From Parvicella tangerina (GTDB lineage Bacteria > Bacteroidota > Bacteroidia > Flavobacteriales_D > Parvicellaceae): a DNA stretch of 64,000 bases. Of the stretch, positions 5,544 through 50,964 are shown one piece after another. Below the pieces are notes generated by a model. The model had not been told where the DNA came from. It made no database searches and saw nothing but the letters and a program-made list of their open reading frames with translations. Where the stretch lies: the NCBI RefSeq assembly GCF_907165195.1, contig NZ_OU015584.1, positions 124,001 to 188,000 of the forward strand. The letters are read 5' to 3'. How positions within the stretch are numbered: the stretch's first letter is position 1; each line of letters starts with the position of its first letter. A program made the translations under genes and the position numbers.

Positions 5544-7499
5544 ATGAGATTACAACTGCCCATATTGTTATTTCTCTTTGGTATTCTGCCTTCAATTACC
5601 TCTGCACAGAGTGTGTTGGATAGTTTGTTGAGCATTGACCAGTTTCATGAACCACCACGTAAAAATGTATTTACCAACATTAACATTAGCAGAGAGTACT
5701 TTGTGCTGGGAGAATATGACGCAGGGTTTTCCTACGGAAAAAAAGCAATGGAAATTGCCAATGAATTGGAAAATGACACTCTTCTAGGACAATCCGCTTT
5801 TTTTTCAGGGTTAAATGCTTTTGAAATGAATGCTGACTCTGGTTTCCGCTATTATAAGATTAGTGCGGAGTTATTGCTCGCTCTCAAACACGAGTGGGCT
5901 GCCTTTGCAATTAACAACCTTTGCACGGAATATACGGAGTTGAGTTGGTATGCAGAAGCGTTAGAGTATAGGTTGAAGAGCTTGGATTTCTTTAAGGAAC
6001 TTGCCGATACCACGATGATTGTCCATACGATGGTTCGGGTGGGATATATCCATGACCGAATTGGTGAATACGATGAAGCGTTAAGTTGGTATGAAAAGGC
6101 AGAGCCAATAGCAATTGCTCAAAGAGACACGCTGGGAATTGCTGATGTTTATGCCTATCGCGGAATTGCTTATGATGAACTTGAGCTTTATGACTCTGCT
6201 CATTATTACAATAAAAAGGCAATTCAGTTATTTAAGGCCATAGGGGAGATTTACGCGTATAGCATTTGGTGTTCAAATATTGGTAATACTTACCTTAAGC
6301 AAGAAAACTACGAAATGGCCGAGCAGTATCTATTAGAGTCTCTCGCCACTTCAGACGAAACCGATCAAGAAGATAAGTCAATTAAGTTAATCAATCTATC
6401 TAAGGTTTATTATCATGATGGGATGTATATTAAAGGAGATTCAACCTTGTCAAAGGCTCTCGAAATTGCAAAGAATTATTCACAATATAAGTTCATAAGT
6501 GAGGCCTATCTCACCTTTTCAGAATCGTATGAGGATAGAGGTCTAGAAGAGGATGCATTGTTGGCATATAAGAAATATAAAATCTACGAAGACTCTTCTT
6601 TTAATGAGGAAAAAGCGAACCAGATTGCTTACCATAACGCCAAGTTTAACATTCAGGAAAAGGAAAAGGAACTCCTGTTACATAAGAATAAAAGTCAGCA
6701 ACTAGAAAATGAAAAGCTTCAAATTGAATTAGAGTTGGCCAGCCGAAATTTTTGGATTACACTACTATTAGCGCTATTGGCTACCGGAGGGTTACTTTCC
6801 TTCTTTGTTTTTCAGCACAATCGCAGAAAACTAGAACGAGAAAAGAATCGCGCATTACTTGAAGAGAAAGATAAAGGCATAACAGCAGTGATTGCAGCTC
6901 AGGAGGCAGAAAGAACTAGAATTGCAAGGGAATTACACGATGGTATTGTGCAAGAATTAACACACCTCAAGACGCAACTTCAGAACATGACCGATGGTGG
7001 GACAGCAGTCAGTAGAAAGAGTATTCTTGCTGTTGCGGAAGAGTTAGATAGGTCGGCCCATGAGGTTCGTAATATTTCGCATGAACTAATGCCCTTCGCG
7101 CTTAAAGAGTTAGGTCTTGTAGCTGCACTAACCGACATGCTTGAGAAAGTTCTGCCCTCTAATAGTATTCAGTTTGATTTTAATGTGATCGGCATTCAGG
7201 AGCGGTTACCTGCAAAGTATGAAGTAGCTATTTACCGAATTGCTCAGGAGTTGATCAACAATGTGATCAAGCATAGTGGAGCTAACCAATTGGATATTTT
7301 GTTGTCTTATAGAAATAACAAGATCACCTTTAGGGTAGAAGATAATGGTGTTGGTTTGTCTGCAGCTACGGGCAAAGGAATAGGGCTCCAGAGCATTAAG
7401 AGCAGGTTGGATTTGCTAAATGGCGTATTCAAGTTTGAGAAGGAGGAGCACCAGGGTGTAGTCGCTATTATTCAAATACCATTTGAAATAGACCAATAA
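5544..7499 (+). CDS. TPR-containing sensor histidine kinase (second paralog)
   Basis: 651 residues with the same architecture as its neighbour: signal peptide (PILLFLFGILPSITSAQ), periplasmic TPR repeats (about 40-370), coiled coil, one membrane helix (ITLLLALLATGGLLSFFVF), HisKA_3 with phospho-His in RIARELHDGIVQE, and HATPase_c with QELINNVIKHSGA, DNGVGLS and GIGLQSI. The TPR part differs clearly between the two kinases while the kinase core is similar, which suggests duplication followed by change of sensing. All catalytic boxes look intact in both. It begins 43 bp after the first kinase ends. Confidence 0.88.
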   Translation: MRLQLPILLFLFGILPSITSAQSVLDSLLSIDQFHEPPRKNVFTNINISREYFVLGEYDAGFSYGKKAMEIANELENDTLLGQSAFFSGLNAFEMNADSGFRYYKISAELLLALKHEWAAFAINNLCTEYTELSWYAEALEYRLKSLDFFKELADTTMIVHTMVRVGYIHDRIGEYDEALSWYEKAEPIAIAQRDTLGIADVYAYRGIAYDELELYDSAHYYNKKAIQLFKAIGEIYAYSIWCSNIGNTYLKQENYEMAEQYLLESLATSDETDQEDKSIKLINLSKVYYHDGMYIKGDSTLSKALEIAKNYSQYKFISEAYLTFSESYEDRGLEEDALLAYKKYKIYEDSSFNEEKANQIAYHNAKFNIQEKEKELLLHKNKSQQLENEKLQIELELASRNFWITLLLALLATGGLLSFFVFQHNRRKLEREKNRALLEEKDKGITAVIAAQEAERTRIARELHDGIVQELTHLKTQLQNMTDGGTAVSRKSILAVAEELDRSAHEVRNISHELMPFALKELGLVAALTDMLEKVLPSNSIQFDFNVIGIQERLPAKYEVAIYRIAQELINNVIKHSGANQLDILLSYRNNKITFRVEDNGVGLSAATGKGIGLQSIKSRLDLLNGVFKFEKEEHQGVVAIIQIPFEIDQ

Positions 7500-7584: not shown

Positions 7585-10026
7585 ATGAAGATTTCTTTGA
7601 ATTGGCTAAAGGACTTTATTGATATATCTATTCCAGCAGAACAGGTGTCTGAAATACTTACGGACATTGGTTTAGAAGTAGAGAAAATGGCTGAGGTGGA
7701 TACGGTCCCAGGAGGATTAAAGGGTTTGCTTATCGGAGAAGTTGTATCCACTGAACTTCACCCAAATGCAGATCGTCTTAAAATCACTCAAGTAAGTTTA
7801 GGAGAAAATGAGATGGCGCAAATTGTCTGTGGAGCACCGAACGTTGCTGCGGGTCAAAAGGTAGTTGTTGCTGTTCCCGGAACGACCATTTACCCAACAT
7901 CAGGAGAGCCATTTAAGATAAAAAAATCCAAAATTAGAGGAGTAGAATCACTGGGAATGATTTGTGCTGAAGATGAAATTGGGCTGGGGCACTCCCATGA
8001 AGGCATTATGGTTTTAGACTCTTCGGCTCCCGTTGGAATCGAAGCTGCAAAGTATTTTAATGTTGAAAGTGATATCGTTTTTGAGATTGGGCTAACGCCT
8101 AACAGGGCAGATGCGATGAGTCACTATGGTGTGGCGAGAGACTTGATGGTTGCGTTTAAGCACAAAGGGGTTTTATCAGATGACGCGAAAATCTGTAGAC
8201 ATAGTGTAACAGAGTTCGCATGCGACTCCAAGGATTTGACAATACCAGTAGAAGTCGAAAATAAAGAAGCTTGTCCAAGGTATGCCAGCGTATCCATTTC
8301 TGGAGTGGCAGTAAAAGATTCTCCTAAATGGTTAAAGGATAGGTTGAATGCTATAGGTGTTAGACCGATCAACAACATTGTGGATGTTACGAATTATGTG
8401 TTGCATGAATTGGGTCAGCCCCTACACGCATTTGATGCTGATGTTGTTGGAGATAAAGTTTTTGTGGGTAATATGCCAGAGGGTTCCAAATTTGTTACCC
8501 TTGATGAGGTTGAGAGAGAGTTATCAGAAGCTGATTTAATGATCAAGAATGGTTCTGGAGGAATGTGTATTGCGGGTGTTTTTGGTGGAAATGAATCTGG
8601 AGTTACGGAAAAAACAACAAAAGTGTTTTTAGAAAGCGCTTATTTCGATCCCGTTAGTGTCAGAAAAACAGCAAAACGACATGGATTAAACACAGATGCA
8701 TCATTCAGGTTTGAGAGAGGGATCGATCCAAACATTACGGTGCATGCGCTTAAAAGAGCTGCGCTTTTGATTAAAGAGTTGGCAGGGGGACTAATTTCTT
8801 CAGAGATATCTGATATTCAGTCGAAAGTTTTTGAACCTTTTGAGTTTGACGTTAGCCTTGAAAAGTTATGTCGTTTGGTGGGAGTTGATATTCCAGAAAA
8901 GGTGGTTGTTTCTATTTTGAACAACTTATCCATTCAAACGACAAAAAAAGATGAGGATACTTATATGCTAGAAGTACCCCCGTATCGAGTAGATGTGCAG
9001 CGTGAGGCAGATATTGCCGAGGAAATCCTGAGGATATATGGATTTAACAATGTGTCTCTACCTGAAAAGCTAAATTCAAGCATCACTCACAGAGAAGAGC
9101 TGGACAAAGAAAAGGTGCAGCATTTGATTAGTGATTTGCTCGTAGACAAAGGCTTGGTTGAAGCGATGTCTAATTCACTTACCAAATCAAACTATAGTTC
9201 GCTGATTGAAACAAAAGAGGTTCGAGACGACTTTGAGGTAAGAATGCTGAATCCATTAAGTACAGACTTAGATGTGATGCGTCAAACATTACTTTTTGGA
9301 GGTCTGGAGGCGGTCCGTTTGAATCAAAATCATGGAAATGAGGATGTGGGATTGTTTGAGTTTGGTAAAATATACCAGAAATTTGAAAGTGACTTTTCTG
9401 AGCGCAAATTATTAGCCCTGTTTCTTTCTGGAAATCAAGAACCTGAGGCTTGGAACTCAAATAAAGGAGAGTTCTCTTTTTATACCCTAAAAGGTTTGGT
9501 AGAAGCTATTTTAACAAAACTCGGAATACTTAAGAACCATAATTATTCAGCCGTAAAATCTGCCTTCTTTGAGGATGGAATGGAATTGTCCATAGCAAAG
9601 AAACGAGTAGCAAGAATGGGCTGGGTGAATGGTAAACTGAAGGAGCATTTCGATTTGAGAAACGCGGTGTTCTATGCAGAAATTGATTGGGATGTTGTGC
9701 TAAGTTTGTTGAAGATGAATAAGGTGAAGTTCAAGGAGTTGAACAAATTCCCAGCTGTAACCAGAGACCTTTCGATGTTGGTAGATAAACCAGTGAAGTT
9801 TGAGGAACTGCTGGAAACTGCTGAAAAAGCAGAAAGGAAGCTGTTGAAGAGAGTTTCACTTTTTGATGTCTATGAGGGAAAAAACCTCCCTGAAGGTAAA
9901 AAGTCCTATGCGTTGAGGTTTGTCCTTCACGATGAAAGCAAGACCCTTAAGGATAAGGAAATTGAGAAGAGTATGGAGCGAATTCAGTCAGCCTTGGAGA
10001 AGTCCTTTAATATTCAATTGCGATAA
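7585..10026 (+). CDS. pheT: Phenylalanine-tRNA ligase beta subunit
   Basis: 813 residues from ATG 7585 (MKISLNWLKDFID is the family's normal N-terminus; the frame is open further up to 7537). It charges tRNA-Phe together with PheS, which is not in this window. Domains in order: B1, the OB-type tRNA-binding domain (LKGLLIGEVVSTELHPNADR, about 40-150), B3/B4 with the editing site (EIGLTPNRADAMSHYGVARD and the following part), B5 (about 400-475), the catalytic-like core, and the FDX-ACB anticodon domain at the C-terminus (NKFPAVTRDLSMLV...SYALRFVLHDESKTL). Length is normal for the bacterial beta chain. Confidence 0.95.
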   Translation: MKISLNWLKDFIDISIPAEQVSEILTDIGLEVEKMAEVDTVPGGLKGLLIGEVVSTELHPNADRLKITQVSLGENEMAQIVCGAPNVAAGQKVVVAVPGTTIYPTSGEPFKIKKSKIRGVESLGMICAEDEIGLGHSHEGIMVLDSSAPVGIEAAKYFNVESDIVFEIGLTPNRADAMSHYGVARDLMVAFKHKGVLSDDAKICRHSVTEFACDSKDLTIPVEVENKEACPRYASVSISGVAVKDSPKWLKDRLNAIGVRPINNIVDVTNYVLHELGQPLHAFDADVVGDKVFVGNMPEGSKFVTLDEVERELSEADLMIKNGSGGMCIAGVFGGNESGVTEKTTKVFLESAYFDPVSVRKTAKRHGLNTDASFRFERGIDPNITVHALKRAALLIKELAGGLISSEISDIQSKVFEPFEFDVSLEKLCRLVGVDIPEKVVVSILNNLSIQTTKKDEDTYMLEVPPYRVDVQREADIAEEILRIYGFNNVSLPEKLNSSITHREELDKEKVQHLISDLLVDKGLVEAMSNSLTKSNYSSLIETKEVRDDFEVRMLNPLSTDLDVMRQTLLFGGLEAVRLNQNHGNEDVGLFEFGKIYQKFESDFSERKLLALFLSGNQEPEAWNSNKGEFSFYTLKGLVEAILTKLGILKNHNYSAVKSAFFEDGMELSIAKKRVARMGWVNGKLKEHFDLRNAVFYAEIDWDVVLSLLKMNKVKFKELNKFPAVTRDLSMLVDKPVKFEELLETAEKAERKLLKRVSLFDVYEGKNLPEGKKSYALRFVLHDESKTLKDKEIEKSMERIQSALEKSFNIQLR

Positions 10027-34680: not shown

Positions 34681-36000
34681 ATGAAAGCTCTACAATTCAT
34701 CAGATCAACTAAACGAGGAATAAGCATATTATTTCTTTTTCTGTTTTCGCTAAGTTTAAATGTTAAAGCAGATGTAAATGACCCCAACGTGAATGTTTTG
34801 CCCCTAGATGAAGCAGAATTACCTCCAGAAGGCGGAGTCATCAAATTAGCTTTACTTTTAGATACTAGTAACAGTATGGATGGGTTGATAGAACAGGCCA
34901 AGTCTCAGTTATGGAAAATTGTCAACGAGATCAATAAAGCAAAGTATAACGGAAAACCTGCCGATCTTGAAATTGCATTGTATGAATACGGTAATGATGG
35001 ATTGGAAGTGGCCGATAATTACGTCCACCAAATAACACCGTTTACTGCTGATCTTGACTTGATTTCTATGGAACTTTTTGACCTAAAAACAAATGGAGGT
35101 TCTGAATACTGTGGACATGTTATCTCAGATGCTTTGAATGATTTAGAATGGGGTTCGGATCAACAAAGTTTGAAGCTAATATTCATAGCTGGCAACGAGC
35201 CATTTAATCAAGCTCCAGTGGAGAATACTCCGAAGAATTCAAAGAAAACTAAAGCGATTAATCCGTATCAGTCAGTGAATGCACCGCAGCAAAACAATTA
35301 TCAGGCACAATACTCTCAAGCTTCTTTTAGTATTGCAGGCACGAGCGATTTTTACATCACCGCATGTCGAAATGCGCTGGAAAAACAGGTTTTTGTAAAC
35401 ACCATTTTTTGCGGAGATGCGGATGAAGGAGTTCAAACATTCTGGAAGAAGGGTGCTGATCTGGCAAGAGGAGAGTATATGAACATTGATCAGGATCAGG
35501 AGACATTTTATATCGAGACACCTTTTGATGACAAAATTGCCGCCTTAAATGAGAAGTTAAACAACACGTACATTCCTTATGGAGCTTCTGGAGGGTCAAT
35601 GAAATACAATCAAACAAAGCAAGATGCCAACGCTTCATTTTATGGCAAGGCAAATAGTGTTAACCGAATTGTTTCCAAATCATCCCATAACTACAAAAAT
35701 TCATCATGGGATCTTGTAGATGCTTATGGCTCTGACGATTTTGATCTTGCTGATATAGAAGATAAATTTCTTCCAAAGGAAATGCAGGGAATGAGTCTGG
35801 AAGAAAAAGAGGTATTCATTCAGGATAAGGCGAAAGAAAGAGCCGCTATTAAGCAAGAGATAAAAACCATCAATGTGGAGCGGGTTGCTTTTATCGATGC
35901 AAAGAAAAAAGAGATGGGTGATGATAGTGGCTCATTGGATGCAGCCATGATCCAAGCAATTCATGAGCAAGCAAAAACGAAGGGCTTTTTGTTTGACTAA
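34681..36000 (+). CDS. Secreted von Willebrand factor A-domain protein
   Basis: 439 residues from ATG 34681, where a signal peptide starts (GISILFLFLFSLSLNVKA); the longer frame from 34555 overlaps the upstream gene. The vWA domain has the MIDAS motif DTSNSMDG and the later segment LKTNGGSEYCGHVISDA. The C-terminal part is helical and charged (EKEVFIQDKAKERAAIKQEI). vWA domains bind metal-dependent ligands; the partner is unknown. It ends in its own terminator. Confidence 0.8.
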   Translation: MKALQFIRSTKRGISILFLFLFSLSLNVKADVNDPNVNVLPLDEAELPPEGGVIKLALLLDTSNSMDGLIEQAKSQLWKIVNEINKAKYNGKPADLEIALYEYGNDGLEVADNYVHQITPFTADLDLISMELFDLKTNGGSEYCGHVISDALNDLEWGSDQQSLKLIFIAGNEPFNQAPVENTPKNSKKTKAINPYQSVNAPQQNNYQAQYSQASFSIAGTSDFYITACRNALEKQVFVNTIFCGDADEGVQTFWKKGADLARGEYMNIDQDQETFYIETPFDDKIAALNEKLNNTYIPYGASGGSMKYNQTKQDANASFYGKANSVNRIVSKSSHNYKNSSWDLVDAYGSDDFDLADIEDKFLPKEMQGMSLEEKEVFIQDKAKERAAIKQEIKTINVERVAFIDAKKKEMGDDSGSLDAAMIQAIHEQAKTKGFLFD

Positions 36001-36012
36001 AGTGGTGAGCAA

Positions 36013-36054
36013 AAGAAAGCCCCTCATTCAAAAAATGAAGGGCCTTTAATTTTG
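36013..36054 (+). terminator. Terminator between vWA and PfkB genes
   Basis: The arms AAAGCCCCTCATT and AATGAAGGGCCTTT form an imperfect stem with an A-rich loop, followed by a T-rich stretch. It can act for the converging genes on both sides. Confidence 0.65.
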
Positions 36055-36065
36055 TATTCTAGTTT

Positions 36066-37010
36066 TTAGATTTGCTCTTCCTCCTGAAATGGGTATTCCA
36101 TGGTGAAGTTCGTCAATTCAGCAAATTGAGATATTCTATCTGCAATTTCTTCCATTGTTAAGTCTCGAAGTCTTTCGATTCCAAATTTTTCTACTGTAAA
36201 AGAAGCAAGTGCTGATCCCATGATAATGGCATTTTTCATGTTTTCCCATGAGATGTTTCCTGAGCTAGCTAAGTATCCTATAAACCCTCCCGCAAACGTA
36301 TCTCCAGCACCAGTGGGGTCAAACACTTCTTCCAAAGGAAGCGCAGGAGCAAAAAATACTCGCTCATCATTAAACAACAGCGCTCCATGTTCACCCTTTT
36401 TGATAATCAAATATTTGGGTCCCATGGTTAAGATTTTCTTTGCAGCTTTTCTAAGCGAGTATTCACCAGACAGTAAACGAGCCTCTTCATCATTGATGGT
36501 TAGTACATCTACTTCTTTGATTACAGTCAACAAATCGTCAAGTGCAACTTCCATCCAAAAGTTCATGGTATCCAAAACAATAAGCTTTGGTCTTTTCTCC
36601 AGGCGATCAATCACTTGAAGCTGAGCCTGTGGAGCAAGGTTCCCAAGCATTAAATACTCACAGTCTTGATAAGCGTCTGGAATGATTGGATCAAAAGTCT
36701 CAAGAACGTTTAATTGTGTATCGATCGTATCTCTTGAGTTCATATCAGCGTGATACTTACCCGACCAGAAAAAAGTTTTTTCTCCTTGTTTTACTTGAAG
36801 ACCTTCAGTTGAAATATCTCGATCGGAGAACATGTCAATAACATCCTGAGGAAAATCATCACCCACTACGGATACGATTTTTGCTCCTTTAGTAAAGTAC
36901 GATGCGGCAAGACTGATGTATGTACAAGCTCCGCCAATAATTTTATCGGTCTTCCCGAAAGGTGTTTCAATAGCATCAAAAGCTACTGTACCAACGTTAA
37001 CTAGGCTCAT
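36066..37010 (-). CDS. PfkB-family carbohydrate kinase
   Basis: 314 residues from ATG 37010 (MSLVNVGTVAFDAIETPFG is the usual N-terminus). The PfkB motifs are present: GGACTYISLAASYF near the start and FDPTGAGDTFAGGFIGYLA, with the catalytic Asp in the GAGD stretch, near the end. It phosphorylates a sugar or nucleoside; which one cannot be told. It lies opposite the tRNA-Asn gene, whose start is 87 bp away. Confidence 0.88.
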   Translation of the reverse strand: MSLVNVGTVAFDAIETPFGKTDKIIGGACTYISLAASYFTKGAKIVSVVGDDFPQDVIDMFSDRDISTEGLQVKQGEKTFFWSGKYHADMNSRDTIDTQLNVLETFDPIIPDAYQDCEYLMLGNLAPQAQLQVIDRLEKRPKLIVLDTMNFWMEVALDDLLTVIKEVDVLTINDEEARLLSGEYSLRKAAKKILTMGPKYLIIKKGEHGALLFNDERVFFAPALPLEEVFDPTGAGDTFAGGFIGYLASSGNISWENMKNAIIMGSALASFTVEKFGIERLRDLTMEEIADRISQFAELTNFTMEYPFQEEEQI

Positions 37011-37096
37011 TTTTGCGTTTTTATTTAATTTTTTTGGCAAAGATATTGTTTAATTCCAAACTTTAAATTAATATTGCACCCCGTTTCAAAAACGAT

Positions 37097-37170
37097 GCTT
37101 CTTTAGCTCAGTTGGTTAGAGCATCTGACTGTTAATCAGAGGGTCCTTGGTTCGAGCCCAAGAAGAAGCG
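37097..37170 (+). tRNA. tRNA-Asn (GTT)
   Basis: 74 nt fold into a normal cloverleaf: acceptor GCTTCTT/AAGAAGC, D arm TAGCTCAGTTGGTTAGAGCA, anticodon stem TCTGA/TCAGA with loop CTGTTAA (anticodon GTT at 37131-37133), T arm CTTGG-TTCGAGC-CCAAG, discriminator G. The CCA end is not encoded. The 3' part of the gene is repeated downstream three more times in 122-bp units. Confidence 0.97.
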
Positions 37171-37583
37171 CTAGAAAAGCAAGAAAAGCTGATCATTTTT
37201 TGGTCAGCTTTTTTTATGTGAAAGATTTTGTGGGCGAGAAGTTTATACCGAGAGAGGTGATAACCGAACCGAGGTGAGCCCAAGAAGAAGCGCTAGAAAA
37301 GCAAGAAAAGCTGATCATTTTTTGGTCAGCTTTTTTTATGTGAAAGATTTTGTGGGCGAGAAGTTTATACCGAGAGAGGTGATAACCGAACCGAGGTGAG
37401 CCCAAGAAGAAGCGCTAGAAAAGCAAGAAAAGCTGATCATTTTTTGGTCAGCTTTTTTTATGTGAAAGATTTTGTGGGCGAGAAGTTTATACCGAGAGAG
37501 GTGATAACCGAACCGAGGTGAGCCCAAGAAGAAGCGCTAGAAAAGCAGAAAAAGCTGATCATTTTTGGTCAGCTTTTTTGTTT
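37154..37583 (+). repeat. Tandem 122-bp repeat built from the tRNA-Asn 3' end plus terminator
   Basis: Units begin at 37154, 37276, 37398 and 37520 (the last partial, about 64 bp). Each starts with the last 17 nt of the tRNA-Asn gene (GAGCCCAAGAAGAAGCG), then CTAGAAAAGC, a stem-loop terminator (AAAAGCTGA...TCAGCTTTTTTT, first copy about 37184-37215), and a spacer ending ACCGAACCGAGGT. The first unit overlaps the tRNA itself. The three full units look identical; the last carries small indels. The layout recalls the repeats behind E. coli tyrT, which also begin with tRNA 3' sequence. Confidence 0.9.
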
Positions 37584-37622
37584 TAGGTCAGGTGCTAAGT
37601 TTTTATAATTACTTTTAGTCTC

Positions 37623-37904
37623 ATGAAAAAAGTAACAATTCTATTAGTTAGTGTGGCTATAGCACTATCCATGTCTAACTGCAAGGCCATGGCCAGAGCT
37701 GCGGCTAAGTACTGGACCAAAAAGCAGATCAAACAGTTTGTAAATAATTGCGAAGAGAAGTCTGCCAAATTTGTTGGAGAAGAAAAGGCTCATCAGTTTT
37801 GTGATTGCGCAGTTGATCAGGTGGCAGAAAAGTATAAAGACTACAAAACTGTGGAAGACGTATCTATTATGGAGGTTATTAAAATAGCCAATGACTGCAG
37901 GTAA
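37623..37904 (+). CDS. Small lipoprotein-like cysteine-containing protein
   Basis: 93 residues. An N-terminal signal (VTILLVSVAIALSMSNC) ends in Cys, a probable lipobox. The rest is helical and charged, with FVNNCEEK, HQFCDCAVDQVAEKY and NDCR, giving four further cysteines. These may form two disulfides in the periplasm. Family not recognised. It lies just after the tRNA repeats and 3 bp from the converging antiporter. Confidence 0.65.
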   Translation: MKKVTILLVSVAIALSMSNCKAMARAAAKYWTKKQIKQFVNNCEEKSAKFVGEEKAHQFCDCAVDQVAEKYKDYKTVEDVSIMEVIKIANDCR

Positions 37905-37907
37905 AAG

Positions 37908-40148
37908 CTAAAGTTCACTTTCCAACTTCTTCCTGCGCTCACTGATGTCTTGAATAAAGTGTCCAGCCTCCCCAACATCAATACGTCCTTTCTTTTGCAG
38001 ACGCTCTACCGTTTTTTCTTCATAATCAAGTAAGGTTCGTATCGCTCGCTGAGTAGAAAGCGTTTCATAAATGTTAGGGTATTCTGAACGAAGGTTTCTG
38101 ATAAAGGATTGACCAGCAATTTTATTTGCATTGATTTCTTCCTCAAGTTTTTCTAGCATCTCCATGCCCACATTTTCGTTTCTAGCAATACTTCCCAAGA
38201 GTGAAATACACTCATCTTGAGCCAAAACGAAACCAATAGCCGCATCATAACTCTCTGCCAGTCGGTTTACAGCTATTCGGTGCCTTAACTTTTTCAAAAA
38301 ACCTGATTGAGATAGACGTTTAACCCACCCCGGAATTGTCCAAAGATCTTCCAAGTCTTTTCGATGTGATAATGGTAACTTTCCGTTTTCATCAATTAAG
38401 TTGTTTATGCCTTCTGTGAGGCTAGGAATCACCTTACCGGGCAACATTCCCTCTTTGAATTGATGCCAATAACTACTTTTCTCTTTTTCAAGTAGCTTTT
38501 TCCGGAGTTCAGCAATTGTTTTTTCCTCGTGCTCATCACCTATCTTAACGTCTGATTCTGGTGGGAGAAATGATTCAACTGTATCCCAATCAGCCTTTTT
38601 CAAATAACGGTCTTGTTTACTTCGGTTTACTTTTTTCTCACCAGCCATTCGCAAGTAATGATTTACACTTGCCCGCATTTCTAATTTAGATTCACTTAGC
38701 TTGAGCAGTCCAAGTTTTTCAATGATCATTTTAATAGTTGTGGCATTTACAAGCAGCGTAAGTGTTACGGTTCCCGCAATCAAGAAAAGGAACTCTTCTT
38801 TTATCTCAATCGCCTGATCAAGGGTTACGCCCATTGTACTTACGAGGTCATTTGGATTAATATTTGCAACAATTAAAGCCAGCGCAAGTCCAATAGCTCC
38901 CCTTAACGCTCCGTACCAAACTACAACACCCTCTTTTTTAGTGAGTCCATAACCTGCATTCTTCATAATAGGGAAGAACATCGTAAGTACAATAGCTCGA
39001 ACAATATGAATACCAATATAAACAATCAATAGGATGACGAAGTCACTTGCCGTGAACTGAGTTCGTTGAGAAACTACTAACCCAACGATTAAGAAGATGA
39101 TACAGTTGGCAATGAATCCAGCTAACTCCCAGAATTCATGCATAAAGTGCTCAACTTTTGGTGAAATACTCGATCTTCCAGGACCTCCTAATACTAACCC
39201 CAAAGCAACTAGGGCAAGGACTCCAGAAACATGAAAAAAGTGTTCTGCCGTATAAAAAGTCAGGTAAGCTGCACCTACAACTAGTGTGATTTCAACCATA
39301 GCATCGGTGTAGATTCGACTTAACCACTTCACGCAAATCCACCCCATAAAAAGACCAATACCAATTCCGCCAAAAGAAACAATCACAAACTTAAGAATGC
39401 CGTTCATACCATCAGCTTCACCTGTTAATGCACCAAGGAAAACCATAAAGATCACAATAGCAGTTCCATCGTTTAATAAAGACTCTCCTTCTATGGTTGT
39501 TCCTAATTTCTTACTTGCACCAAGATCCTTGAGCAGCGCAACTACGGCAACAGGGTCGGTAGCACTGATTACCGCACCAAACATCAAAGCCAAACTCCAG
39601 TTTGCCCAACCTTCAAGACCGATGTCAAAATAATCGATCCCAATAACGATAAGTGCCGTAAGTACCAATGCAACAAGAATTCCAGGGACAGCAAGCAAGA
39701 CGGAGTTTACAGCGGTCTTTTTGAAGGTATGGAAATCCATGGCAAAAGCGGCTTCAAAAATCAATATCGGTAAGAAAATATATAAAAGTAAGTGCGGATC
39801 AATATGTGCTGCATTGTACAAAGAGTCCTTAATAAAGCTCACATCAAGGCTCCCCCAAGTCTCGAAATACCCCAACCGTGAAAAGCTTCCTAAAACAATC
39901 CCTATAACGAGTAAAAGAGCAGTAAAAGGAATTGGCAACTTCTTCAAAAGATGCCTGGTGGAAACACCGATAAATACAGCTACTATTATGAAAAAAAGCA
40001 TAGATGTGTCAGGGTGATGACCGTGTTCCACTTGCTCTACAGCAATTTCTTCTGCCACTTCAACACCATGATCTGTTGTAGGGTTGGCAAAAAGTGAAAA
40101 GTTTAAGTTAATTACGAGTGCAAGTAAAAGTGTGATAAGCTTAGGCAT
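37908..40148 (-). CDS. Na+/H+ antiporter, NhaP/CPA1 type
   Basis: 746 residues from ATG 40148 (an earlier ATG at 40169 is possible). After a signal-like N-terminus there are about 12 membrane helices (55-480) with the ion-site motifs SATDPVAVVALLKDLG and EGESLLNDGTAIVIF of the CPA1 family. A cytoplasmic tail of about 260 charged, helical residues follows, longer than in most bacterial members. It exchanges monovalent cations for protons. Regulation through the tail is a guess. Confidence 0.9.
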   Translation of the reverse strand: MPKLITLLLALVINLNFSLFANPTTDHGVEVAEEIAVEQVEHGHHPDTSMLFFIIVAVFIGVSTRHLLKKLPIPFTALLLVIGIVLGSFSRLGYFETWGSLDVSFIKDSLYNAAHIDPHLLLYIFLPILIFEAAFAMDFHTFKKTAVNSVLLAVPGILVALVLTALIVIGIDYFDIGLEGWANWSLALMFGAVISATDPVAVVALLKDLGASKKLGTTIEGESLLNDGTAIVIFMVFLGALTGEADGMNGILKFVIVSFGGIGIGLFMGWICVKWLSRIYTDAMVEITLVVGAAYLTFYTAEHFFHVSGVLALVALGLVLGGPGRSSISPKVEHFMHEFWELAGFIANCIIFLIVGLVVSQRTQFTASDFVILLIVYIGIHIVRAIVLTMFFPIMKNAGYGLTKKEGVVVWYGALRGAIGLALALIVANINPNDLVSTMGVTLDQAIEIKEEFLFLIAGTVTLTLLVNATTIKMIIEKLGLLKLSESKLEMRASVNHYLRMAGEKKVNRSKQDRYLKKADWDTVESFLPPESDVKIGDEHEEKTIAELRKKLLEKEKSSYWHQFKEGMLPGKVIPSLTEGINNLIDENGKLPLSHRKDLEDLWTIPGWVKRLSQSGFLKKLRHRIAVNRLAESYDAAIGFVLAQDECISLLGSIARNENVGMEMLEKLEEEINANKIAGQSFIRNLRSEYPNIYETLSTQRAIRTLLDYEEKTVERLQKKGRIDVGEAGHFIQDISERRKKLESEL

Positions 40149-50308: not shown

Positions 50309-50964
50309 GTGTGCCCTGCATGAGCAGGACACACCCGTTTGAATTTTGTTTTTGATATCAATAATGCAAATTATTGATTAGAAACGAAAGAAAAGCGGGT
50401 GTTATTTTTCTAGAGGGTTAAAGTCCCTTGTGGGTTAGGGTCGTTCCTATAACCATTAGTAAGCTGCAAGGTTGTTAGTTGTGAAGCTAGGACTGAAGGA
50501 AGCAGGACTACAAAAGTCGGTACTGACGAACAGGAATCGCATACAGAGGCATAGCCAATTTGGGTAAGCAAGCACATCATTGTAACGCCCACAAGAAAAG
50601 GTTGGTTATGTAGATGCGGCAGTTATTGACGGGAAGAAAAAGCTCTTACCGGGGGAGGTCTCCTTAGCTACGCGTTAGCATAGAGGAGAAGTCAGCAGAG
50701 GTCATAGTACATACAAGCAACGAGTCGGTGACCTAAGGGATAAGCATCGGAGGACTCACAGCGTATGGAAGGACCGAACGATACTCTTCTAGAAATTCGC
50801 ATAGGAATACAAAAGTATAGCCTATGCTTAAAGTAAAAAGGAATAGCTACAAGGGTGAAAAGAGCTTTGTATTGATGAGTATCGAACCGCCCAGTACGAG
50901 AACCGTACGCTGGGTGGTGTGAGAGGCGCACTCCGTCAATTTTTGGCGGAGCCGTCTACTCGAT
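50309..50964 (+). mobile_element. ORF-less group II intron inserted in an attC core (IIC-attC-like)
   Basis: 656 nt. It begins GTGTGCCC (GUGYG type) and ends CTACTCGAT. Domain V is at about 50884-50919: ACCGCCCAG pairs with CTGGGTGGT around the inner stem GTACG/CGTAC, with a CGC triad as in group IIC introns and a two-base bulge. A domain VI-like stem follows (ACTCCGTC ... GGCGGAG). No reverse transcriptase frame is present; open frames on the other strand are chance. Insertion at TTGT/T on the attC bottom strand is the known IIC-attC target. Splicing would need a maturase from elsewhere. Confidence 0.8.

Follow-up and report, generated by a model that had tools for sequence, protein, structure and literature searches.

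The tRNA genes are a favorite landing site of bacterial mobile DNA, which usually enters them through integrases. Integrative elements that carry a tyrosine integrase restore the 3′ end of the tRNA gene, and a duplicate 3′ end flanks the element. At Escherichia coli tyrT, rtT RNA is said to be a proposed small RNA with a tRNA-like 3′ end that is freed by tRNA processing, and in the mitochondrial atp6 gene of Allomyces an endonuclease ORF has reportedly been inserted together with a replacement 3′ part, the displaced 3′ part lying downstream. The closest precedent for the locus described here is SegB of the T-even phages, a GIY-YIG nuclease whose gene, like those of the family described below, lies beside tRNA genes (PMC13096335, PMC2988022). 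According to the passages of the principal source available to us, SegB is a free-standing homing endonuclease that cuts inside tRNA genes, has its motif RAWTSGAAC at 23 of 83 sites, causes segmental or tandem amplification by recombination, and has homologs near tRNAs of many isotypes in phages, with homologs also known from phages of Bacteroidota hosts (PMC13096335). The reverse complement of this motif, GTTCSAWTY, is in our reading the T-loop consensus of tRNAs, although the text available contains neither “T-loop” nor “T-arm” (PMC13096335). Here we describe a tandem array behind a tRNA gene of Parvicella tangerina that we interpret, with a probability of about 0.56, as tandemly amplified units without an ORF, derived from a small homing-type mobile element that has tRNA genes as its target.

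The DNA analyzed (hereafter, the window) comprises 64,000 nucleotides, bases 124001 to 188000 of a complete genome assembled as a single contig of 3.98 Mb, and its sole tRNA gene is an intact tRNA-Asn(gtt) at 37097 to 37171 on the + strand (ARAGORN, Rfam), which is also the sole Asn tRNA found in the genome tRNA lists. From the 3′ tail of this gene (tRNA nucleotides 58 to 75; 37154 to 37171), a tandem repeat extends to 37579, with a period of 122, 3.5 copies, 99% matches, and a score of 831 in TRF. A BLAST search of the 3.98-Mb genome with the 122-bp unit recovered three full copies that are 100% identical and a partial copy with 93% identity over 43 query bases, with no further full or half copy; the other rows were short partial matches, the best spanning 39 bases round the terminator at 83%. 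Together with RNA folding, which places an intrinsic terminator in each unit, these searches bear out an initial annotation made from the sequence alone, which had described three identical 122-bp units and a partial fourth, each with the tRNA-Asn 3′ end and a terminator. The repeated piece is indeed taken from the tRNA 3′ end, but it measures 18 nt rather than the 17 first given.

All parts of the array lie on the + strand. The tail is followed by the terminator of the tRNA itself in unit 1 (37181 to 37215, by RNA folding) and by a third component, overlooked in the initial annotation, the core (core 1, 37227 to 37286), which runs into tail copy 1 (37276 to 37293). Unit 2 then brings an identical terminator copy (37303 to 37337), core 2 (37349 to 37408), and tail copy 2 (37398 to 37415), and unit 3 another (37425 to 37459), with core 3 (37471 to 37530) and tail copy 3 (37520 to 37537); each tail copy matches the tRNA at 18 of 18 positions. 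A diverged terminator copy (93%; BLAST, TRF) at 37538 to 37579 constitutes the partial fourth unit. The core is a hairpin, GGGC-GAGAAGTTTATACCGA..GAGGTGA-GCCC, that leads directly into the tail copy, and its layout, GGGC-GAGAAGTTTAT-palindrome-AGCCC, is continuous with that copy. Because its GGGC forms base pairs with the T-arm sequence GCCC, the hairpin occupies the position of the T-loop, so that a T-stem-like arm, GAGAAGTTTA, a palindrome, and the start of the tail copy stand where the loop would be. All three cores were located with a covariance model, R1 (core 1 at E 2.8e-10, and in alignment A1), which was built on 42 sequences, the window sequence included. The whole unit folds well (z = −3.3; none of 200 shuffles equally good), and the core folded alone does so only slightly better than expected (z = −1.75; 9 of 200 shuffles equally good). 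Elsewhere in the window, 13 kb from the array, Rfam matches group II intron domains RF02001 and RF01998 at 50475 to 50774 on the + strand.

Perfect repeats can raise the suspicion of an assembly artifact, and the identity of the units would fit one; against this, the genome is a single 3.98-Mb contig, the array measures about 430 bp, and homologous units occur in a congener and in unrelated genomes, so that we give such an artifact hardly any credence. The likeness to E. coli tyrT drawn in the initial annotation is a good one. In strain K-12, tyrV is trailed by three copies of the tRNA-Tyr 3′ end (18 of 18 nt), 178 bp apart, the identity of the tail copies begins inside the T-loop, at the same breakpoint as in the window (L377), and RttR is annotated at the tyrT/tyrV repeats. 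Like the window, E. coli has tandem units containing tRNA 3′ sequence; unlike the window, it has no GAGAAGTTTA core in the stretches inspected before the tail copies. Set beside integrative elements, the 122-bp units differ in being too small for an integrase and in that one core serves many tRNAs; set beside the Allomyces atp6 element, the element proposed here would have what is reportedly the same layout, but the Allomyces element lies in a protein gene of a mitochondrion.

The initial annotation had also called for a check of the other tRNA genes of the genome, and this yielded two more cases, one of them with a GIY-YIG nuclease gene. When 900 nt downstream, or as far as the retrieved stretch extended, were searched behind the window's tRNA and 34 others, a copy of the gene's own 3′ end at 12 of 16 positions or better was found for 3 of the 35: tRNA-Asn, tRNA-Ala(ggc) (16/16), and tRNA-Phe (12/16). 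The tRNA-Tyr gene, with a tail match of 11/16 that none of 50 shuffles equaled, was left out of the three. Behind tRNA-Ala(ggc) (L239, G000:C1:748142-748400) the exact 16/16 copy lies 144 nt downstream, and neither core nor GIY-YIG ORF was seen in the 760 nt at that locus. At the tRNA-Phe locus (L257, G000:C1:355954-356600) the tRNA is succeeded by a terminator, then by a GIY-YIG ORF with a frameshift, and then by a partial tRNA-Phe whose T-loop contains a palindrome. The window's own units contain no GIY-YIG ORF; the genome's nine PF01541 matches lie elsewhere, the one behind tRNA-Phe among them.

Comparison with close relatives indicates that the array is changeable. At the same pfkB–tRNA-Asn site the window's genome (G000) carries three units, the congener G001 one, and G003 none in the stretch read, and the G001 unit copies G001's own tRNA, whose T-stem differs from that of the window. 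Unit number therefore differs among close relatives, and each copy fits the local tRNA. BLAST of window positions 35901 to 39500 against 1.4 kb of G001 and G003 aligned only up to the tRNA, giving no precise empty site. Redundant termination, one of the functions first suggested for the repeats, now looks like a side effect, because tRNA and core are separated by a spacer of at most 25 nt at 19 of 89 listed core loci, which we judge too small for a terminator, and because the second terminator in G001 has apparently decayed.

The core is not peculiar to this genus. Two genomes from other families of the same taxonomic order (L031, L040) have a tRNA-Asn followed by the same core and that gene's own tail, and scanning named genomes with the pattern GGGCGAGAAGTNTATNCCGA yielded at least 120 stretches, with 159 cores among those listed; 31 of the listed stretches carry two to four cores, and the record titles seen for 80 of the 120 are mostly of Bacteroidota. 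A tRNA on the same strand lies within 700 nt upstream of the core in 89 of the 120 listed stretches, and within 90 nt in 83. Counted as same-strand tRNAs, these 89 loci comprise Lys-TTT (25), Gln-TTG (16), Met (11), Asn (10), Gln-CTG (6), Ala (5), Leu-TAG (4), Lys-CTT (4), His (2), Arg (2), and four singletons, a distribution in which tRNAs with GCCC or GTCC are favored because the exact pattern fixes GGGC. Thus, among the matches listed, the core stands behind 14 tRNA species (anticodons). The tail that follows it is usually that of the local tRNA: among the 119 tRNA-linked cores listed, 3 of which had too little sequence to be scored, the tail matches its own tRNA at 13 of 16 positions or better in 90 and at all 16 in 65, and the mean match is 13.6 for the own tRNA vs. 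8.8 for other tRNAs. Of the 31 listed stretches that lack a near tRNA, 15 have their core no more than 150 nt from where the available sequence ends on the upstream side, and by our reading many of the 31 still have a tRNA-like tail; two of the 120 (L147 and L150) look to us like chance matches in coding sequence. The covariance model found the core in 15 of 99 genomes of the class, with a same-strand tRNA within 700 nt at 25 of the 30 loci retrieved, three of which are the window's own, and the strict pattern found it in 12 of 299 genomes of the order.

Several further occurrences were recorded. The motif is present in metagenome-assembled genomes labeled Neomarinimicrobiota, Delongbacteria, Chlorobiota, and Magasanikbacteria (L089, L098, L108, and L118), through misbinning or transfer. 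At L111, two core sites with Met tails (2213 to 2270 and 7221 to 7280) lie 5 kb apart behind a tRNA-Met, and several ORFs, located in front of the first site and between the two and including a pair that look Fic-like by eye, are possible cargo, an arrangement that brings to mind a cassette or integron; one contig, G747:C161, has two core matches at 9800 and 17081, 7.3 kb apart. A phage origin of the core was considered and rejected: none of 27 viral contigs with the bare 16-mer has a same-strand tRNA within 700 nt upstream, and these viral matches look protein-coding in our reading.

The simplest account of the array is plain slippage, which would have duplicated the tRNA 3′ end and terminator with no element involved. 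The three identical units are in keeping with it, as are the homologous trailers found on both sides in the window itself and at 17 of 60 core loci, which plain local duplication would also explain. The trailers behind the tRNA and behind the last tail copy are, however, without detectable relation in 43 of the 60 loci; only at spacers of at least 30 nt does the test have power, and there 28 of 42 are unrelated despite matching tails, as expected if the 3′ part is of outside origin. Slippage leaves these unrelated trailers unexplained, together with the recurrence of one non-tRNA core in many genomes and next to 14 tRNA species, and we consider it quite improbable; as the full story, local duplication is ruled out by the recurrence of the core behind many tRNAs. 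Simple target-site duplication as a general rule was likewise rejected, with related trailers in only 17 of the 60 loci.

The hairpin itself shows covariation. In an alignment of 41 of 63 distinct short units listed, together with the window (A1, 42 sequences), in which part of the core stems had been fixed beforehand by the search pattern, the covariation score of the hairpin is 0.205 vs. 0.101 when shuffled (0 of 500 as high) and at most 0.095 when the structure is slid, and the cells changed on both sides of the stems number 58 vs. 30.6 in shuffles (0 of 500). The count of stem pairs with two-sided change (6 vs. 5.5) is not above chance in these 42 sequences. In 72 of 82 units the outer pair of the palindrome, which the pattern leaves free, is C:G; 8 units have a different standard pair there, and in 2 the bases do not pair. 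Among relaxed-pattern matches, moreover, the arm of the core varies with the tRNA, with ggag accompanying CTCC at Leu-CAA and ggac accompanying GTCC at Thr. At the covariance-model loci the palindrome varies by locus and GAGAAGTTTA hardly varies, some loci having GAGAAGTTCA; the palindrome types behind GAGAAGTTTA are TCCCGA/TCGGGA, TCCCGC/GCGGGA, TCCGCC, and CCCTGAGCGCAG. Dispersed TCCCGA..TCGGGA palindromes are also encountered, with at least one in 29 of 40 relatives' genomes; relative to a reversed control they are enriched in some genomes, such as G038 (25 vs. 2) and G000 (11 vs. 2), and not enriched in others, such as G023 (1 vs. 4).

Conservation of this kind could reflect a structured RNA, tRNA processing freeing small RNAs with a tRNA-like 3′ end. 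Such a role would account for the covariation and for the conserved unpaired GAGAAGTTTAT/AA, for the position of the units on the same strand as the upstream tRNA, and for the similar tail copies in the E. coli tyrV repeats. It sits poorly with the patchy distribution of the core (the 15 of 99 and 12 of 299 genomes given above, the latter by strict pattern), with the presence of 3, 1, or 0 units inside one genus, and with the location of many units beyond a terminator. In addition, Rfam gave only tRNA at the array, with no other RNA family at gathering score, and only tRNA at 15 related loci. We therefore regard a conserved small RNA as improbable.

The tRNA-homing interpretation draws further evidence from a family of tRNA-linked GIY-YIG genes. 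Matches to PF01541 were collected from the window's own genome, from eight genomes selected for carrying cores or nucleases, and from 60 genomes drawn evenly from the class; for the 60, only those of the listed matches with short open frames were retrieved. Among the matches listed for the evenly drawn genomes, a tRNA on the same strand is found no more than 400 nt upstream at 23 of 89 retrieved loci, and three more have a tRNA directly downstream (L324, L327, and L373). Over all sets the upstream figure is 31 of 115 small GIY-YIG loci listed (the overlapping L270 and L277 both counted), compared with 1 of the 115 for an opposite-strand tRNA within 400 nt; 27 of 32 tRNA-linked ORF pieces, among the matches listed, lie within 82 nt of the tRNA. 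From 34 tRNAs in 3.98 Mb, simple arithmetic puts chance linkage well under 1%. Behind the ORF, 15 of the 31 linked loci listed carry a tail copy at 13 of 16 positions or better, and 30 shuffles of each locus gave no score above 12; the other 16 have no tail copy at 13/16, with shorter fragments in some.

The partial tRNA copies inspected at these loci are broken in the tRNA loops, whereas the intact tRNA keeps its T-loop. Palindromes split them in the T-loop (L266, L339, L326, and the Phe locus of the window's genome), in the anticodon region (L268, L340, L342, L349, L357, L369, L279, L359, L367, and L326), or, in mirror-image elements, in the D-arm (L270, L324, and L327). The mirror-image arrangement was observed at L270, L324, L327, L373, and L082, where 5′ partial tRNA copies with palindromes are followed by a GIY-YIG ORF and an intact tRNA. 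The same tRNA is interrupted at the same site in different genomes: Asn at L268 and L340, Met at L357 and L369, and Arg at L270 and L324.

The nucleases also cluster by target. In a protein tree of 117 rows and 79 columns, which has many unresolved forks, a 62-row clade (SH-aLRT 98) contains no tRNA-linked protein; the 37 linked rows all fall within the remaining 55, where seven or more rows scored as unlinked have tRNA fragments as well. The isotype of the linked tRNA changes 15 times on this tree, compared with a shuffled mean of 23.9 (minimum 18; 0 of 500 as low). Asn, Ala, and Met account for 20 of the 37 linked rows, and four Met-linked proteins from four families of the class lie in one clade (L306, L308, L357, and L369), a fifth, L272, being placed elsewhere. 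The nuclease genes thus sit at their presumed target, in target-specific lineages, as judged from the tRNA neighbors and the isotype clustering. The proteins have roughly 80 to 100 residues, the presumed autonomous relatives score over the curated cut-off of PF01541, and one each of G, R, H, E, and K is invariant in the 37 proteins, which suggests that these are working nucleases. NCBIfam has no family for four of them at E 0.01, and a PDB search with one returned weak relatives only (UPF0213 protein EF2693, E 0.019). Judging by titles and the beginnings of abstracts, none of the papers listed in our literature search gives an account of tRNA-linked GIY-YIG genes in bacterial chromosomes, and the letters of the core, searched as text, gave no relevant match.

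Whether the core units belong to these nucleases is a separate matter, and we infer that they do from shared anatomy and from five mixed loci with core and GIY-YIG ORF (L188, L050, L051, L082, and L268). The only locus uniting both in one unit is L188, where tRNA-Lys, a GIY-YIG ORF, and a tRNA-like fragment stand in succession, and the core sits exactly in the T-loop of the fragment and is followed by the Lys tail. Elsewhere the two are seldom together: a GIY-YIG ORF occurs in 4 of the 120 listed core stretches, a frequency that does not clearly exceed the background for such genes near tRNAs, and one of the four, L054, has it behind a different tRNA. The partial copies inspected at the GIY-YIG loci lack GAGAAGTTTA, which is found only in that of L188, and the core units favor Lys and Gln tRNAs (51 of 89 listed loci), unlike the nuclease family with its Asn, Ala, and Met.

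Given this rare co-occurrence, the missing GAGAAGTTTA, and the differing tRNA preferences, the core units may represent an element of their own that is aimed at the same site. They would then be an independent REP-like palindromic element entering tRNA T-loops by another enzyme, with GIY-YIG elements sharing only the target, and an exchangeable palindrome behind a nearly constant GAGAAGTTTA would be in character for it, as would the TCCCGA..TCGGGA palindromes dispersed in some genomes such as G038 and G000. Yet the GIY-YIG units share the plan of the core units, with an intact tRNA, a tail copy, and a palindrome in a tRNA loop, and L188 has nuclease and core in one unit. We hold an independent element to be unlikely, though it deserves to be taken more seriously than the other alternatives.

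If the units do derive from a GIY-YIG homing element, their history might be as follows. The presumed autonomous relatives would consist of a single-domain GIY-YIG endonuclease between an intact tRNA and an interrupted partial tRNA. The nuclease would cut an uninterrupted tRNA gene, and repair from the donor would copy the element in, together with the tRNA 3′ part that it carries; because the sequence adjoining the tRNA body provides a complete 3′ end, the tRNA would remain whole. The old 3′ part, displaced or duplicated, would persist downstream, leaving a second tRNA 3′ end in which the T-loop has been swapped for a hairpin and which, because the hairpin interrupts its loop, would no longer be a target. 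Recombination between identical tails could then amplify or delete units, giving the three seen here, the one in the congener, and the zero in another genome. Of the functions proposed in the initial annotation, whose interpretation is thus partly supported, a role in integration comes nearest, but the evidence favors units left by a tRNA-targeting element over bait for integration.

Two features set the present system apart from SegB: the SegB survey concerns virus proteins and the present family bacterial chromosomes (PMC13096335), and the passages on SegB available to us mention neither tRNA 3′-end copies nor tRNA-loop palindromes like those of the present units. We tentatively suggest, at somewhat less than even odds, that Bacteroidota chromosomes harbor a new class of mobile element, GIY-YIG “tRNA homing cassettes” that would enter through tRNA loops, restore the 3′ end, and close off the remaining tRNA half by means of an exchangeable palindrome, their ORF-less core units (T-stem arm, GAGAAGTTTA, palindrome, and tail) being mobilized in trans and amplified into arrays. 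There is a fair chance that the system deserves a class of its own beyond free-standing homing elements. Many different tRNA genes are apparently used by a small nuclease, which would face the same problem as integrase-borne DNA, that of entering an essential gene without destroying it, and which would leave behind a scar that can be read. If this is true, homing of the SegB type extends from phages to bacterial chromosomes, and interrupted and uninterrupted alleles provide a natural target set for GIY-YIG specificity. Furthermore, a class of tRNA 3′-end repeats would be explained, and the E. coli tyrT repeats may be touched as well.
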